Origin: Parasphaerochaeta coccoides DSM 17374
GTDB lineage: Bacteria; Spirochaetota; Spirochaetia; Sphaerochaetales; Sphaerochaetaceae
DNA: 64,000 nucleotides
Direction of reading: 5' to 3'
Assembly: GCF_000208385.1 (NCBI RefSeq)
Contig: NC_015436.1
Span: 558,001 to 622,000 of the forward strand
In this document: one piece after another, positions 58,129-64,000 of the stretch
Numbering within the stretch: position 1 is the first letter of the stretch
Layout: each line of letters begins with the position of its first letter
Position numbers and translations under genes: made by a program
Notes under the pieces: model-generated
The model's input: the letters and a program-made list of their open reading frames with translations, nothing else
What the model was told of the DNA's origin: nothing
The model's database searches: none

Positions 58129-59001
58129 TTACATGCCCCATTCTTCAATTTCAAGGTTCACGCCGGTCGTTGCTATGCTGCCATATCTTTCCAGACTCTC
58201 AGCAATATAAACTTGCAGTTCCTGGAGCGTCGATGAAATTCTGTGGGAAATTGGCACACGCAACTTCACGGTCAGGTTGTAGCCTTCCGGAAGTAGTTGT
58301 ACGGAGACTTTTTTTACTTTCAGATGGGTGTCAAATTCATTGAGGCAGTGAACTACCATCTGTGTGAGGGCTACGTCACTGACGGCGACCCTGCCATGCT
58401 TGCTGAATCGAGGACGTACTATCGTTTTTTCAAAGACTTTTTTCTTCAACCATGGCAACTTGAGCTTGCTTCTGAAAAAAACGCTGAGAGAATCATAGAC
58501 AATCTGGGGATAATTGCGGGTTATCTCTATGGTAGGGACGGGGATGACATGCTTGCCTTCGGTGTAGCGTATCCGCATGGCGGTGTCGATTTCTTCCTTG
58601 GTGGCGATTTCCTCGATATGGAATATCTTCTCAGGCTCAGGCAGATTGAGGCGAGCCGCAATTTTCCGAACCATTTTCTCGCTTGTTCCGATGATGAGAA
58701 TTCTGTGATATTTTTCCTTCTGGAGGGCATTGATTACATCACTTTGCTTCTGGAGGTCATCAAAAAGAGCAGTTTTCACCGCAGTCAGGAAATTAGGCTC
58801 CTGCTTGGCCGAGCTTCCCGCGAGTATCCTGTCTCCACGTATCAGAAGTCCATCATCAATGATCAGCTCTATGTTGTATTTTTCAGCGACAAGTTTTGAG
58901 CGGAAACTCTTTCCTGTTCCGCTACGTCCAACCAGGGCATAAACCTTTATTCCTTTGAACTTCCAGAAAGCATAACGAAAAACTCGATTCATTGTTCTCA
59001 T
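58129..59001 (-). CDS. P-loop ATPase fused to an Asp23/Gls24-like C-terminal domain
   Basis: 290 residues. A Walker A loop GRSGTGKS lies near residue 25 with FDD and IDDGLLI acidic strands after it, resembling a small kinase or ATPase. From about residue 205 the sequence changes to an Asp23-like module: VAVSDVALTQMVVHCLNEFD, KKVSVQLLPEGYNLTVKLRV, VYIAESLERYGSI, TGVNLEIEEW. I infer a fusion of an ATPase with a domain known from envelope- or stress-related proteins. No known function. ATG at 59001 is chosen; an upstream TTG is possible. Confidence 0.65.
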   Translation of the reverse strand: MRTMNRVFRYAFWKFKGIKVYALVGRSGTGKSFRSKLVAEKYNIELIIDDGLLIRGDRILAGSSAKQEPNFLTAVKTALFDDLQKQSDVINALQKEKYHRILIIGTSEKMVRKIAARLNLPEPEKIFHIEEIATKEEIDTAMRIRYTEGKHVIPVPTIEITRNYPQIVYDSLSVFFRSKLKLPWLKKKVFEKTIVRPRFSKHGRVAVSDVALTQMVVHCLNEFDTHLKVKKVSVQLLPEGYNLTVKLRVPISHRISSTLQELQVYIAESLERYGSIATTGVNLEIEEWGM

Positions 59002-59122
59002 TATAGTCCAAATCAACTACAATGAACAGGAATTCCCTGTTGATATGTGAGTGAATTCACAATTTTAAATTCTTGGACAGGATGTCCGCATCCGTGTCCT
59101 CCGGTTGTTTTAAGGGGTATGT

Positions 59123-60439
59123 ATGATACGAAGCGTGACGTTCAGGCGTGGTGGAGTTCATCCGGTGGATTCAAAGTCATTTTCAGTAAACGTGGCGATT
59201 ACCCGCATGCCCATGCCGTCGGAACTGGTCATTCCTCTCGGTGCGCACATCGGTGCGCCTTCCACGTGTCTTGTAAAAGCGGGCGACAGAGTGGTGAGGG
59301 GACAGAAAATTGGTCAGTCTACAGGAAATGTCAGTACGAACGTACATTCGTCCGCCACGGGCGAGGTCAGGGCGATCCGTGAGATACACTTGTTCAATGG
59401 GGCAGTGTGCCAAGCGGTTGTCATTGCGCCGGACGCAATCCAGCCTGACATGGACGGTACTGCTGCCAGTACGGCTCCGGAGTGGAAGACGCTGACTCCG
59501 GCTGAATTGTCTGCCCTGATTCACGAAATGGGGGTCGTCGGTGCAGGAGGGGCGGCATTCCCGACTCATGTGAAACTTGCCGTACCCCCTGGACGCAGGC
59601 TTGATGCCTTGATTATCAACGGCAGTGAATGTGAACCTTATGTGACTGCCGACCATAGGCTCATGCTGGAACATGCCGACGAGTTGCTGGAGGGAATCGC
59701 CATCCTGAAGCGTATTCTGTCGCCTCCCGCCGTCTATATAGGCATTGAAAAGAACAAGATGGATGCGGTCACCTTGCTCCAGGATAAAATAAGTGCCCAA
59801 GGATTGGCCATCACGGTCTGTCCACTCCAGACAAAGTATCCCGAAGGTGATGAAAAGATTCTGATTAATGCCATACTGGGACGGGAGATTCCCCAAGGCA
59901 AGCTGCCCATCGATGCCGGAGCAATCGTAACGAACGTATCCACCGTATATGCCATCCGACAAGGTTGCGCATGCAAGATGCCGTTCATCGACCGGGTTAT
60001 CACCGTGACAGGCGAGTGCATTGCCCGTCCTGCGAATCTCCTGGTGCCGATTGGGGTCAAAGTCCGCGATGTGGTGGAATACTGCGGGGGATATTCCTCG
60101 ACTCCCGGTAAACTTATTACCGGAGGCCCCATGATGGGCTTCGAGGTTGATGAAGACGCTCCTGTGACCAAGGGCATGGATGGCATCGTCGCATTGCCTT
60201 CTGTCCCAGTCAGGCCGACAACCCCATGTATCTCATGCGGTCGATGTCTTGATGCCTGTCCCGTGGGTCTTTCTCCCACGACTATGTTTAAGTTAATTGC
60301 CAGCGGAAACATCAAGGCTGCTCTGGGCTTGAATTTAATGGACTGTAGGGAATGCGGGGCTTGTGCCTATGTCTGTCCCGCGCATATACCGCTTGCAGCG
60401 GGGTTCTCATGGGGCAAGAAAATGCGGAGGACGGTGTAA
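59123..60439 (+). CDS. rnfC: Rnf complex subunit RnfC
   Basis: Soluble electron-input subunit of the Rnf ion pump. 438 residues. The flavin/NADH-type domain contains GAGGAAFPTHVKL and INGSECEPYVTADHRLM; two 4Fe-4S binding motifs are intact (CISCGRCLDACPVG and CRECGACAYVCPAH). AAGGGG lies 5 bases before the ATG. First gene of rnfC-D-G-E-A. Both FeS motifs are complete, in contrast to the degenerate RnfA/RnfE downstream. Confidence 0.93.
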   Translation: MIRSVTFRRGGVHPVDSKSFSVNVAITRMPMPSELVIPLGAHIGAPSTCLVKAGDRVVRGQKIGQSTGNVSTNVHSSATGEVRAIREIHLFNGAVCQAVVIAPDAIQPDMDGTAASTAPEWKTLTPAELSALIHEMGVVGAGGAAFPTHVKLAVPPGRRLDALIINGSECEPYVTADHRLMLEHADELLEGIAILKRILSPPAVYIGIEKNKMDAVTLLQDKISAQGLAITVCPLQTKYPEGDEKILINAILGREIPQGKLPIDAGAIVTNVSTVYAIRQGCACKMPFIDRVITVTGECIARPANLLVPIGVKVRDVVEYCGGYSSTPGKLITGGPMMGFEVDEDAPVTKGMDGIVALPSVPVRPTTPCISCGRCLDACPVGLSPTTMFKLIASGNIKAALGLNLMDCRECGACAYVCPAHIPLAAGFSWGKKMRRTV

Positions 60440-60440
60440 A

Positions 60441-61805
60441 ATGGCTTTTGATGCTTTCATAAAAAAGGGTTCTCCCTATATCCATGATGGCTCGACCAGT
60501 TCCGTAATCATGTGGTCGGTTGTCATTGCGCTTTTACCCGCCGCGGCGTGGGGGGTGTGGATGTTTGGAATATCCGCGCTGTGGGTGCTTCTGGTTTCCG
60601 TCATTGTCGCCATGGGGACTGAATATCTTCTTGGGTTGATTGGGAGCGAAGCGCATGACATGAGCATCCTTGATGGTTCTGCGTGTGTTACCGGGCTGCT
60701 GGTCGGCATGAACATGCCTTCCTCTGTTCCCCTCTATGTTCCCGCGATAGCGTCGGTCTTTGCCATCGCAGTGGTCAAATGGCTTTTCGGAGGACTTGGC
60801 GCCAACTGGATGAATCCGGCGTTGGGAGGTCGTGCCTTCGTATTTTTCTCGTTCACTTCGGCCATGTCATCCTTTCCCGTGCCTGGTGTCCTTACGCAGG
60901 CATCGGTTCCTGTCGCCGCCGCAGCAAGTACCGTAGCCGCAGCAAGTACCGTAGCCGCAGCAAGTACCGTAGCCGCAGCAAGTACCGTAGCCGCAGCAAG
61001 CACCGTAGCCGCAGCAAGCACCGTAGCCGCAGCAAGCACCGTAGCCACAGCAAGCACCGTAGCCACAGCAAGCACCGTAGCCACAGCAAGTACTGTAGCC
61101 ACAGCAAGCACCGTAGCCACGGCAAGCACCGTAGCCACGGCAAGTACCGCTGTAGTCGCTGATGCAGTGGCAAGTGCTACTCCTCTTGCCTTGATAAAGA
61201 CAGCTCTTGCCTCCGGAAAAGGGGTGGGGCAGGGTTTTGCTGAACTGATGACCGCACAAGGATATCCTGCCACTGAATTTGCCAAGAGCATATCAGACTT
61301 CTTCGGTGGTCACGTCTCTCCCTATGCTGTCGATGCTTTCTTTGGGAATATAGGCGGCTCCATTGGTGAAATCAGCGCAATCCTGCTTCTTGCAGGGGGC
61401 ATATTCCTCCTTGTGAAGAAAATCATTTCATGGCATATCCCCGTGTCTTATCTTGGTTCCTTTGGACTTTTGGCGTGGATATTCGGCGGACTCCGTTCGG
61501 AGCTACCTCTTTTCCATGGCGATGTCCTTCTTCCTTTGCTAACCGGCGGTCTTGTCTTGGGAGCCTTATTCATGGCCACGGATATGGTCACTTCACCTAT
61601 CACCAATCCGGGACGGCTTGTTTTTGGCATTGGATGTGGCGTCCTGACATTCCTTCTTCGTTACTATGGTTCCTTGCCGGAAGCGACATCCTTGGCAATT
61701 CTCATAATGAACATTCTGACTCCTACCATTGACAGGTACATCCGACCGAGGCTGTATGGAACCGGACGACAGGCAAAATTGGGAAACAGGGAGGTGACGG
61801 CATGA
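60441..61805 (+). CDS. rnfD: Rnf complex subunit RnfD, with internal hexapeptide repeat
   Basis: 454 residues; the family is usually about 310-350. Membrane segments begin at about residue 22; the periplasmic covalent-flavin site is recognised as DAVASATPLALIK with Thr247. Immediately before it, residues 161-238 are 13 copies of AASTVA or TASTVA (the last is TASTAV), encoded by an 18-bp tandem repeat. The C-terminal half keeps normal features (NIGGSIGEISAILLLAGGIFLL, GALFMATDMVTSPI). ATG at 60441 directly follows the rnfC stop. Confidence 0.9.
   Translation: MAFDAFIKKGSPYIHDGSTSSVIMWSVVIALLPAAAWGVWMFGISALWVLLVSVIVAMGTEYLLGLIGSEAHDMSILDGSACVTGLLVGMNMPSSVPLYVPAIASVFAIAVVKWLFGGLGANWMNPALGGRAFVFFSFTSAMSSFPVPGVLTQASVPVAAAASTVAAASTVAAASTVAAASTVAAASTVAAASTVAAASTVATASTVATASTVATASTVATASTVATASTVATASTAVVADAVASATPLALIKTALASGKGVGQGFAELMTAQGYPATEFAKSISDFFGGHVSPYAVDAFFGNIGGSIGEISAILLLAGGIFLLVKKIISWHIPVSYLGSFGLLAWIFGGLRSELPLFHGDVLLPLLTGGLVLGALFMATDMVTSPITNPGRLVFGIGCGVLTFLLRYYGSLPEATSLAILIMNILTPTIDRYIRPRLYGTGRQAKLGNREVTA
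60921..61154 (+). repeat. 18-bp tandem repeat, 13 copies, inside rnfD
   Basis: The unit is GCAGCAAGTACCGTAGCC. Copies 1-4 are identical; 5-7 change one base; 8-12 change the first codon to ACA or ACG; 13 is diverged. It stays in frame, so gains or losses of units change protein length without a frameshift. No spacers, so not a CRISPR array. Confidence 0.97.
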
Positions 61806-62362
61806 CTGAAAAGATTAAGACTGTGCTTATAGTCACCATATCCTTTGTCGTTGCTTGTTTTCTTCTTGCAGGACTCAATGCCATTACCGCGCCGATTGTC
61901 TCTGCCGCTGCGTCATCACAGGAGCAGGCAGACTACATTGGGGTTGCGTCAGGAAACAGTCTGGGACTGAAGGAAGCGGTGGAAGGCGTTGCCTCGGTAA
62001 ACTATCGCCTGGAGATGAAGGATGTGAACGGAAAACATGTGGGCTGGGTGCTCGACCTTACAGGTAGCGGCTTCGGCGGACCAATGCGCATCGTTGCAAG
62101 CTATGACCTTTCCGGAGCCATCATCGCTGGTACGATACTGGAGAATACCGAAACACCCGGTATCGGGACACGGAGCCAGGAGCCTGGGTATTTCGATATG
62201 TTCACAGGAACAGGAGGTCAGGTTCCCGTACCCGTTTCCGCAGCCAGGCTCAGTGCAGGTCATGTACAGACAATGAGTGGTGCGACGATTACTTTTACTG
62301 GCATTGCCCGCGCACTTGCAGCAGGTTCCGACTATATCAAGAGTCTGGGAGGTACAAGGTGA
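61802..62362 (+). CDS. rnfG: Rnf complex subunit RnfG
   Basis: 186 residues with one N-terminal membrane anchor (residues 7-30) and a periplasmic FMN-binding domain. The covalent-flavin motif is TMSGATITFTG with Thr162 as the probable attachment residue. GYFDMFTG and NTETPGIG are typical. ATGA overlaps on both sides. Confidence 0.93.
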   Translation: MTEKIKTVLIVTISFVVACFLLAGLNAITAPIVSAAASSQEQADYIGVASGNSLGLKEAVEGVASVNYRLEMKDVNGKHVGWVLDLTGSGFGGPMRIVASYDLSGAIIAGTILENTETPGIGTRSQEPGYFDMFTGTGGQVPVPVSAARLSAGHVQTMSGATITFTGIARALAAGSDYIKSLGGTR

Positions 62363-62997
62363 TGAAATTCACAACATATGAGCAAGACGGACAGACATCA
62401 ATGCCAGCAGTATGCCTTGCTCTGGGCATATGCACTGCGCTGGAAGCTGCTGCCGCCGTCAATTCCGCCATTGTCCTTGGACTTCTTCTGTTGTCAATCA
62501 TGATGCTTTCTTCTCTTGTCACATCGTTCCTGCGGAAGGTCATAACTTCTGATGCCGCTCTTTTGGTGCCGCTCATCGTCATTGCTACCTTCACATCCGC
62601 CGCATCCCTTTTGCTTCAGGCTTTTGCTCCCGCGTTGCATGGGACATTGGGAATTTCGCTTCCTTTGCTGACAGTGAACGCTCTTATTCTCAGTCGGATA
62701 CATGGTTTTGCCCGTGGACATGGAGTTATAGCTTCAATGCGTGACAGCCTCCTGAGCGGGCTTGGTTTTCTGGGGAGTCTGACAGTCATAGCCCTGGTCA
62801 GGGAAGTACTGGGGAAGGGGACTGTCACCCTCTTTCCCATAGGGGATTGGAACGGTGTCATCACGCTGCCTTTTATTTCCTCCGCGCCCATCAAGGTTGC
62901 AGTGAGTATGGCAGGAGGTCTGATGGTGCTGGGCATGTTCATGGCATTCCATTCCGTTGTCTTGGCTAATCGGGCAGAGAAGGAGAAAACAGCATGA
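62359..62997 (+). CDS. rnfE: Rnf complex subunit RnfE, one membrane cysteine replaced
   Basis: 212 residues with six membrane segments. It aligns by eye with RnfE/NqrD: CLALGICTALEAA keeps the first conserved cysteine (Cys25), but the second, normally in a TNC or VNC sequence, is Ala108 (LLTVNALILSRIHGFA). In well-studied Rnf/Nqr complexes these cysteines bind a shared intramembrane 2Fe-2S cluster. Overlaps rnfG and rnfA by ATGA. Confidence 0.87.
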   Translation: MMKFTTYEQDGQTSMPAVCLALGICTALEAAAAVNSAIVLGLLLLSIMMLSSLVTSFLRKVITSDAALLVPLIVIATFTSAASLLLQAFAPALHGTLGISLPLLTVNALILSRIHGFARGHGVIASMRDSLLSGLGFLGSLTVIALVREVLGKGTVTLFPIGDWNGVITLPFISSAPIKVAVSMAGGLMVLGMFMAFHSVVLANRAEKEKTA

Positions 62998-63584
62998 GTT
63001 ACATTGGCATACTTATTACCTATATCCTTGTCAGCAATCTTGTCCTTGTCCACGGGCTAGGAATTGGGACGCTTGCGGCTCCTTGCCCCACACGCACAAA
63101 GACTTCCGTGGCTGCTTTGATAGCAGTTTCAACTGTCCTTTCCGGCATCTTGGGCTGGATAGTCAGAACTGTCATTCTGCTTCCTTTGAAAGCGGATTAC
63201 TTGTCCGTGCTGGTCTCTGTCATGATTGTGGCAGGCATCGGCATGGCGGTGTTGGCTGTTGTCAGGGCATATGCGCCGGAATTTCATGAAGACGTCAAGG
63301 CGTTTGCTCCCCATGTCCTGACTGATGGCATAGTCATGGGACTGCTCCTGATTATTGCTATGGAAGGTTATGGTTTTGGTCAGGCTCTCTTTGCGTCGGC
63401 AGGGACAGGACTGGGCTTTCTTTTGGTTGCCGTTCTCCTGGGGAATATCCATGAACGCCTGCTTCTTCATCCTGTAAGGAAATCTTTTTCCGGTCTTCCC
63501 ATCTTGTTCGTTTCGTTGGGACTGATGGCTTTGGTATTTTCTGCGGTTGATTCCACGCTTCTCACGAATCTAAATCTCATGTAA
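62994..63584 (+). CDS. rnfA: Rnf complex subunit RnfA, both membrane cysteines absent
   Basis: 196 residues with six membrane segments. Relationship to RnfA is clear from ILVSNLVLVHGLGIGTL and LLVAVLLGNIHERL. The two family cysteines are missing: the LGxC position is Gly25 and the TNC position is Gly112 (VLTDGIVMG). A single unrelated Cys31 is present (APCPTRTKTS). No rnfB follows; the next gene is unrelated. Confidence 0.85.
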   Translation: MSYIGILITYILVSNLVLVHGLGIGTLAAPCPTRTKTSVAALIAVSTVLSGILGWIVRTVILLPLKADYLSVLVSVMIVAGIGMAVLAVVRAYAPEFHEDVKAFAPHVLTDGIVMGLLLIIAMEGYGFGQALFASAGTGLGFLLVAVLLGNIHERLLLHPVRKSFSGLPILFVSLGLMALVFSAVDSTLLTNLNLM

Positions 63585-63852
63585 CACTGTAGTAGGTTCA
63601 TGATAGCTGCCTTGACGGATATTTTTCAGAATTATATTCGTCCAATTGTATGCGATTGAATGATTGAAACAGACGAGCAGAGCAAAAAAAGAAGCATTGG
63701 CAAATTTCACTTTTACACTATCCTCCGGATGGCGTTGCATAGCTTCAGGAAAAAGTATAGTTTGTTCCAAACACAGTCGGGTAGTATCGACTTCCGGCTT
63801 TCTGTGGATTATGCTTGTGTTTAGACTTTCTTTGTAGAGGAGCCTTCCGTCC
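63585..63852. other. Non-coding gap after rnfA
   Basis: 268 bases with no convincing gene or terminator on the plus strand. A TTGACG box at about 63613 with a TATTCG 17 bases later is a weak promoter candidate. The minus strand has a 96-codon open frame without a ribosome site. Importantly, no rnfB is present here. Confidence 0.5.
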
Positions 63853-64000
63853 ATGTTCATTGGCGCATACAGTCAGATTCCCCATGGTTCTTCACCCCAG
63901 GCATTCAAGAGGGTGGTGGACTGTGCGCTGAAGCCCCTCCTTACTCATCTGTATCAGAAGCCTTGGGTACGGCTGCATCTTTATCTTTCCGGTGCATTGC
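63853..64000 (+). CDS. Probable GH57-type glycoside hydrolase, 3' end beyond window
   Basis: The first 49 codons are visible. The sequence GAYSQIPHGSSPQAFKRV and then WVRLHLYLSGAL resembles the opening of family 57 glycoside hydrolases, where a strand with a HxP-type turn is followed by a strand ending YSG. GAGGAG lies 10 bases upstream of the ATG. Too short for certainty; it could also be another (beta/alpha)7-barrel hydrolase. Confidence 0.5.
   Translation, partial: MFIGAYSQIPHGSSPQAFKRVVDCALKPLLTHLYQKPWVRLHLYLSGAL

Follow-up and report, generated by a model that had tools for sequence, protein, structure and literature searches.

What remains of an Rnf complex once its ferredoxin-input subunit, RnfB, is gone, and can the remainder still carry electrons along the usual route? 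The question is raised by an rnfC-D-G-E-A operon of Parasphaerochaeta (Sphaerochaeta) coccoides DSM 17374, a spirochaete from the termite hindgut, which lies in a stretch of 64,000 bases (bases 558001-622000 of a one-contig genome of 2,227,296 bases, i.e. 2.23 Mb; hereafter the window). In Rnf as in Nqr, the [2Fe-2S] cluster held by RnfA and RnfE is regarded as a core cofactor that is strictly conserved. Here a vertically inherited operon has lost this cluster along with RnfB, while RnfC, RnfD and RnfG are conserved, and the coupled loss recurs in other spirochaetes. We read the product, with a probability of roughly 0.55, as an Rnf complex stripped of its ferredoxin-input half: an NADH-driven, flavin-only half-Rnf that would export electrons. 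The five genes, with all reading frames open, and the gap behind them are:

rnfC, 59123..60439, + strand: NADH/flavin mononucleotide (FMN) subunit with two intact 4Fe-4S motifs; TIGR01945 480 bits, PF01512, PF13375.
rnfD, 60441..61805, + strand: membrane flavin subunit; TIGR01946 287 bits, PF03116 347 bits.
rnfG, 61802..62362, + strand: periplasmic FMN-binding subunit with the SGAT flavinylation motif; PF04205 39 bits, TIGR01947 54 bits.
rnfE, 62359..62997, + strand: Cys25 kept, Ala108; the ion pair R67/E115 replaced by Ala67/His115.
rnfA, 62994..63584, + strand: Gly25 and Gly112 where the two cluster cysteines would be; His107 and Asp111 at the positions of the gating Leu and Asn; model with the RnfA/NqrE fold.
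Gap at the position of rnfB in relatives, 63585..63852, no strand: 268 bases, no remnant detected.

In the structure of the Acetobacterium woodii complex, the [2Fe-2S] cluster is liganded by C25 and C113 of RnfA and by C25 and C108 of RnfE, and mutants in these cysteines lose ferredoxin (Fd):NAD+ activity (PMC11889175). A first-pass annotation of the window had reported Gly25 and Gly112 in RnfA, and Cys25 and Ala108 in RnfE, at these four positions; both the codons (GGG and GGC; TGC and GCT) and the alignment to the A. woodii ligands agree with it. RnfA and RnfE together contain three cysteines, a single one of them at a ligand position. Judged from their sequences, the pair can no longer bind a four-cysteine [2Fe-2S] cluster, and because the A. 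woodii cluster-cysteine mutants lose their activity, the standard electron route is predicted to be closed, as had been claimed. That these substitutions are a sequencing or assembly error is a negligible prospect: starting from any Cys codon, the three codons require two, one and two base changes, about five in total, which makes a read error very unlikely, and an error would further have to produce the absence of a 0.8 kb gene from a single-contig genome, together with concordant changes at many further positions of RnfA and RnfE. We found no point in its favor.

A second possibility is that the complex is still a ferredoxin:NAD+ oxidoreductase, with another ferredoxin protein in the place of RnfB and a cluster resting on Cys31 of RnfA, Cys19 and Cys25 of RnfE and a non-cysteine ligand. 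The three cysteines left in the pair, and the pyruvate:ferredoxin oxidoreductase that the genome retains, are compatible with it. However, in the AlphaFold model of RnfA Cys31 is predicted to sit in a loop after a half-helix (24-28), and Cys19 of RnfE is six residues ahead of the ligand site; hence, neither takes up a cluster position, an option that the first-pass annotation had raised. One alignment does pair Cys31 with the canonical Cys-Pro; we rejected it, as it costs an insertion of 5 residues and a deletion of 7 where one single-residue gap suffices, and in view of the modelled loop. The models have a mean predicted local distance difference test score (pLDDT) of 85 for RnfA and 80 for RnfE, with template modelling (TM) scores of 0.86 for RnfA against chain A of 7zc6, 8ahx and 9eri, and of 0.70 for RnfE against chain E of 9eri, a similarity of fold that is partly built in since the models were made on alignments of canonical relatives. 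The abolition of activity in the A. woodii mutants (PMC11889175) further argues against a surviving ferredoxin:NAD+ oxidoreductase, as does the loss of the RnfB-contact residue R154 and of the gating residues; moreover, there is no membrane-anchored polyferredoxin at the locus and no protein matching RnfB in the genome. We therefore regard this possibility as very improbable.

The gating residues concern the other role of the pair. In the RnfE of A. woodii, R67 and E115 form an ion pair at the Na+ site; L108 and N112 of its RnfA have gating and binding roles (PMC11889175). The window has Ala67 and His115 in RnfE, and His and Asp at the RnfA sites. Thus, judged by these residues, neither a redox role nor ion gating seems to be left to the pair, although its genes persist.

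The loss of RnfB is genome-wide. A profile search of the complete genome returned nothing above 22 bits for rnfB; the best two matches (22 and 20 bits) are unrelated iron-sulfur proteins, one of them a pyruvate-formate-lyase-activating-like protein, and were rejected as RnfB. By comparison, the rnfB profile exceeds its cut-off in 102 of the 139 family genomes in a stricter search. The absence of rnfB from the operon and the 268-base gap, both noted at first pass, are thereby extended to the whole one-contig genome, and the gap holds no detectable rnfB remnant. The closest genomes to that of the window are metagenome-assembled genomes of Sphaerochaetaceae. Relatives show the locus in the order CCA-transferase, P-loop ATPase (on the opposite strand), rnfC-D-G-E-A-B, GH57 gene, prfB and ftsY. 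The neighbors of the operon in the window are the same on both flanks, with only rnfB gone, exactly between rnfA and the GH57 gene; the downstream gene had been called unrelated, but where the relatives have a canonical locus, it is the gene next after rnfB. The two flanking features are:

P-loop ATPase gene, 58129..59016, - strand: conserved upstream neighbor of the spirochaetal rnf locus, used as a synteny marker only.
Start of the GH57-family gene, 63853..64000, + strand: 632 residues, extending past the window; follows rnfB in relatives.

NqrF was not found beside rnfA either, the next gene being the GH57 gene. The genome has one RnfA/RnfE pair, one RnfD and one ApbE. As pyruvate:ferredoxin oxidoreductase is present, we also rejected a vanished source of ferredoxin as the cause of the loss of RnfB.

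Is this state ancestral or derived? In a tree of concatenated RnfC, RnfD, RnfE and RnfA with the ligand columns masked, the window falls, on a long branch, inside an rnfB-containing Sphaerochaetaceae clade (support 99/96), and because of this nesting its RnfB-less state is derived. A common origin with other RnfB-less clusters, first suggested by the GH57 and ATPase neighbors, was rejected for the same reason and because canonical rnfCDGEAB loci have these neighbors too. None of 18 relatives shares the state of the window: the best RnfA identity is 39%, and the canonical cysteines are present in all of them where readable.

The subunits have not diverged equally. Measured against 45 canonical relatives, the family-invariant positions kept amount to 90% in RnfC (94/104), 98% in RnfD (79/81), 78% in RnfG, 53% in RnfE and 38% in RnfA. 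Identity to the relatives, set beside the identity within the family, is.49/.59 for RnfC,.55/.59 for RnfD,.36/.45 for RnfG,.33/.69 for RnfE and.38/.77 for RnfA. Since the first three are near the within-family level and the last two at about half of it, selection has been altered specifically on the RnfA-RnfE pair. Profile scores run alongside: RnfC and RnfD pass their NCBIfam cut-offs, while RnfG (54 bits; cut-off 102), RnfE (102; 213) and RnfA (91; 229) score far under theirs in the right families; PF02508 matches both RnfA and RnfE over its cut-off. The redox motifs outside the pair are in place, in accord with the first-pass annotation: RnfC has CISCGRCLDAC and CRECGACAYVC for its 4Fe-4S clusters, RnfD retains ASATPL (flavinylation) and the riboflavin-site motifs NWMNPA and ATDMVTSP, and RnfG has MSGATITF. 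The gene order with intact frames that it had given also stands, each open reading frame lying where it had been placed and belonging to the expected family, with 4-base overlaps between consecutive genes at rnfG, rnfE and rnfA.

These data bear on a third explanation, namely that the operon is a functionless remnant which has been decaying slowly since the loss of rnfB, with RnfA and RnfE going first. The divergence of RnfA and RnfE, about twice as far as expected, would fit, as would the clean gap and the failure to find another genome with exactly the state of the window. Against this, RnfC and RnfD evolve at a near-normal rate with 90 and 98% of their invariant positions kept, ApbE is retained, and the RnfB-less state persists in several deep lineages. 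Further, when neutral decay of RnfA and RnfE to 38-50% identity was simulated, 8-10 stops arose on average and never fewer than three in 100 runs, whereas all five frames in the window are open; the divergence of RnfA and RnfE is hence not simple decay, and the earlier argument from intact frames gains support. We hold a functionless remnant to be decidedly unlikely; the notion of a remnant losing function, which the first-pass annotation had entertained, applies to RnfA, RnfE and the missing RnfB only, and fails for the conserved RnfC, RnfD and RnfG.

How far does the coupling of RnfB and the cluster extend? We compared RnfA/E-type operons from the 139 family genomes, to which low-scoring or rnfB-less cases out of 395 genomes of the class were added. 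In Spirochaetia other than the window, RnfB or NqrF lies next to the pair in 105 loci where both genes could be read, and 104 of these have all four cysteines, the lone exception (L101) being a gene cut by a contig end. Among loci lacking an input subunit, 14 of 15 have lost one to four cysteines, in varying combinations. Uncorrected for kinship and sampling, the coupling has a Fisher p of 3e-16; some of the loci without RnfB had been chosen by low profile score. Likewise, residue 115 of RnfE is Glu in 103/105 loci with an input subunit and in 0/15 without. Two RnfB-containing loci within a mostly RnfB-less clade (L122, L123) have four cysteines and Asn or Lys at this residue. High-scoring A/E pairs in rnfB-less genomes proved to be Nqr with NqrF, or rnf operons cut at a contig end.

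On the tree the RnfB label has to change four times or more, each time forced by well-supported branches; in independent pairs the cysteine state follows RnfB in 3.7 of 4 on average and never runs opposite, the pairs being too few for a significant sign test. The loss is thus recurrent, having occurred several times in spirochaetes. One locus (L114) retains all four cysteines (CCCC) although its genome has no rnfB, and two are missing from the locus of its congener (L115), as though RnfB were lost first and the ligands afterwards. The rnfA/rnfE gene pair is retained in every RnfB-less locus that is readable in full. Such recurrent paired loss suggests that the remaining half is reused for something different.

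Other Sphaerochaetaceae have a second RnfB-less type at a separate site (L056, L076 and L085; also L124 and L181), in the order apbE, rnfC, rnfD, rnfG (with a larger FMN_bind), rnfE, rnfA, NusG_II, Hpre_diP_synt_I and ECF-type transporter genes. Their ligand sites have Glu/Ser in RnfA and, in L056, L076 and L085, Cys/Ala or Thr/Met in RnfE, and there is no complete cysteine set. L056, L076 and L085 are RnfB-less and ligand-poor like the window, but differ from it in forming a separate clade (100/100), and in their other genomic context, larger FMN_bind RnfG and linked apbE. These clusters look like an extracytosolic electron-transfer system; repeat-containing secreted proteins are encoded immediately upstream in L076 and L085. 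In yet other RnfB-less clusters, from other Spirochaetia (L120 and L121, perhaps also L118, L125 and L127-L130) no rnfG is recognizable between rnfD and rnfE, and these may be reduced to RnfC-D-E-A only. Several clusters of this type have upstream a DUF212 (divergent PAP2) gene and a gene for an unknown membrane protein of about 500 residues.

What, then, could the retained half do? In the half-Rnf that we propose, NADH would be oxidized at RnfC by way of its FMN and two 4Fe-4S clusters, and the electrons would cross the membrane via the flavins of RnfD to the FMN of RnfG. From RnfG they would leave to a periplasmic acceptor rather than making a U-turn through RnfA and RnfE, the latter two presumably being retained as a non-redox scaffold holding RnfG and RnfD. 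The FMN_bind proteins of the genome are three: RnfG, a membrane-anchored protein of 132 residues beside a flavodoxin-like gene, and a lipoprotein of 609 residues (L157:91-1920, at ~404 kb of the window's genome, G000) with the lipobox LIAGC, an FMN_bind domain with a GAS motif and a fumarate-reductase domain. This last protein, the candidate acceptor, matches the Shewanella flavocytochrome c (1d4c) with 502 bits and conserves all four catalytic residues of the Shewanella fumarate reductase (H365, R402, H504 and R544). A flavinylated periplasmic reductase needs something to bring it electrons across the membrane; the half-Rnf is one candidate, the link between the two being circumstantial. The single ApbE flavin transferase kept in the genome fits with export, and other RnfB-less, cysteine-poor spirochaetal clusters adjoin their own apbE and encode a larger FMN_bind RnfG. 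A flavin-only branch with a different periplasmic acceptor had been suggested at first pass; the conservation of RnfC, RnfD and RnfG and the candidate acceptor speak for it. The missing parts are observed in the sequence, and we infer the direction of flow and the acceptor.

Several points weigh against electron export. The fumarate reductase gene lies outside the rnf operon. Exporting electrons alone, with no ions to follow them, is paid for in membrane potential, and in RnfA/E the Na+ gate looks broken. RnfG contacts chiefly the cavity of RnfA/E (PMC11889175) and may be less well held in the window, as its usual docking partner has diverged. The retention of pyruvate:ferredoxin oxidoreductase means that loss of a ferredoxin source cannot explain that of RnfB. 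Some older RnfB-less clusters, seemingly lacking rnfG, cannot work quite alike, and the reading is drawn from sequence.

A further explanation is a different use of the same parts. Electrons might flow inward, a donor in the periplasm reducing NAD+; or RnfC and RnfD might work on their own as an ion pump linked to NADH or a unit that reduces flavin, RnfG then being a shuttle within the complex. The direction of the electrons is not fixed by sequence, and the clusters apparently without RnfG imply that RnfC-RnfD-RnfE-RnfA may act by themselves. However, export is the better match for ApbE and the fumarate reductase-like lipoprotein, and for inward flow we identified no periplasmic donor; such uses are accordingly unlikely, if less so than decay. 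Taken beyond the window, and with a confidence that stops a little short of even, the export reading would have spirochaetes repeatedly turning Rnf into a ferredoxin-independent, non-pumping, flavin-only NADH oxidoreductase which exports electrons to the periplasm, with RnfA/RnfE as a cofactor-free scaffold. These complexes would be present-day analogues of the RnfB-less intermediate proposed in the origin of Na+-NQR, with the [2Fe-2S] site and E115 usually lost where the input subunit is missing.

Several known systems invite comparison. The canonical RnfABCDGE complexes (those of A. woodii, Clostridium tetanomorphum and Azotobacter vinelandii, and rnfCDGEAB of Sphaerochaetaceae) have homologous subunits, and the window keeps their RnfC, RnfD and RnfG redox motifs; with the Sphaerochaetaceae operons it also shares gene order and a syntenic locus. 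In contrast to them it has no RnfB, has lost three of the four ligands of the AE1 cluster and the Na+ gate residues, and is under a much weaker or different constraint on RnfA/E. The complex is thus by homology and synteny a descendant of Rnf, but as two of the features that define a ferredoxin:NAD+ oxidoreductase are missing from it, it should not be annotated as one. Na+-NQR likewise has an rnfCDGEA-type core without RnfB; however, there NqrF was added and the cofactors of RnfC went while the A/E cluster stayed, and the window shows the opposite, its intact RnfC being no cofactor-less NqrA. The NQR/RNF-like two-subunit systems were proposed to use an NqrB/RnfD homologue for one-way electron transfer, with NAD(P)H as the donor and an FMN domain in the periplasm as the acceptor (Meheust et al., 2021, PMC8238504; Huang et al., 2024, PMC11334425). 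Their RnfD is fused to a PF00175 NAD domain and they are without RnfC, RnfA and RnfE, unlike the window, in which PF03116 is the sole match of RnfD, with no fused PF00175. Closer in lineage, a ‘noncanonical RNF’ was proposed for Treponema pallidum (PMC7512555), again a spirochaete with an atypical RNF-type complex. In the Treponema family, a genome of 1.1 Mb that probably belongs to the T. pallidum group (G211, L135) lacks the RnfA/RnfE family altogether, and its RnfD is no more than a distant one (66 bits); this is a further reduced Rnf relative.

The operon offers a natural test of the division of labor among the parts of Rnf: RnfA and RnfE persist without their redox cofactor and proposed Na+ gate and so may be structural, and RnfC-D-G may be of use without the other half. 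The operon also has a bearing on the model that derives Na+-NQR from a duplicated rnf operon through loss of rnfB and, after it, of the RnfC cofactors (Reyes-Prieto et al., 2014, PMC4014512); apart from this hypothetical intermediate, our literature search found no report of an RnfB-less Rnf or of cysteine loss in RnfA/E. Because the spirochaetal cases keep RnfC but lose the A/E cluster, they suggest that NqrF had to arrive early in the lineage leading to Nqr for that cluster to survive there. A 2021 survey in eLife scored RNF as present only where RnfB was encoded (Meheust et al.; PMC8238504), and by this criterion RnfB-less operons like that of the window would have gone uncounted; RnfB-based surveys miss a class of complexes. 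Conversely, where a pipeline annotates rnfCDGEA of these organisms as a ferredoxin:NAD+ oxidoreductase that pumps sodium, it is probably mistaken.

Lastly, the region has no Rfam match, and one further feature lies within the operon:

18-base-pair tandem repeat in frame within rnfD, 60918..61149, + strand: 12.9 copies, 96% match.

It encodes an Ala-Ser-Thr-Val-rich (ASTVAA-type) insert ahead of the flavinylation site. The insert segment has 115 residues in the window and 23-101 in relatives, of which one (L088) has a similar Ala/Thr/Ser repeat in its RnfD and another (L087) a shorter low-complexity insert.

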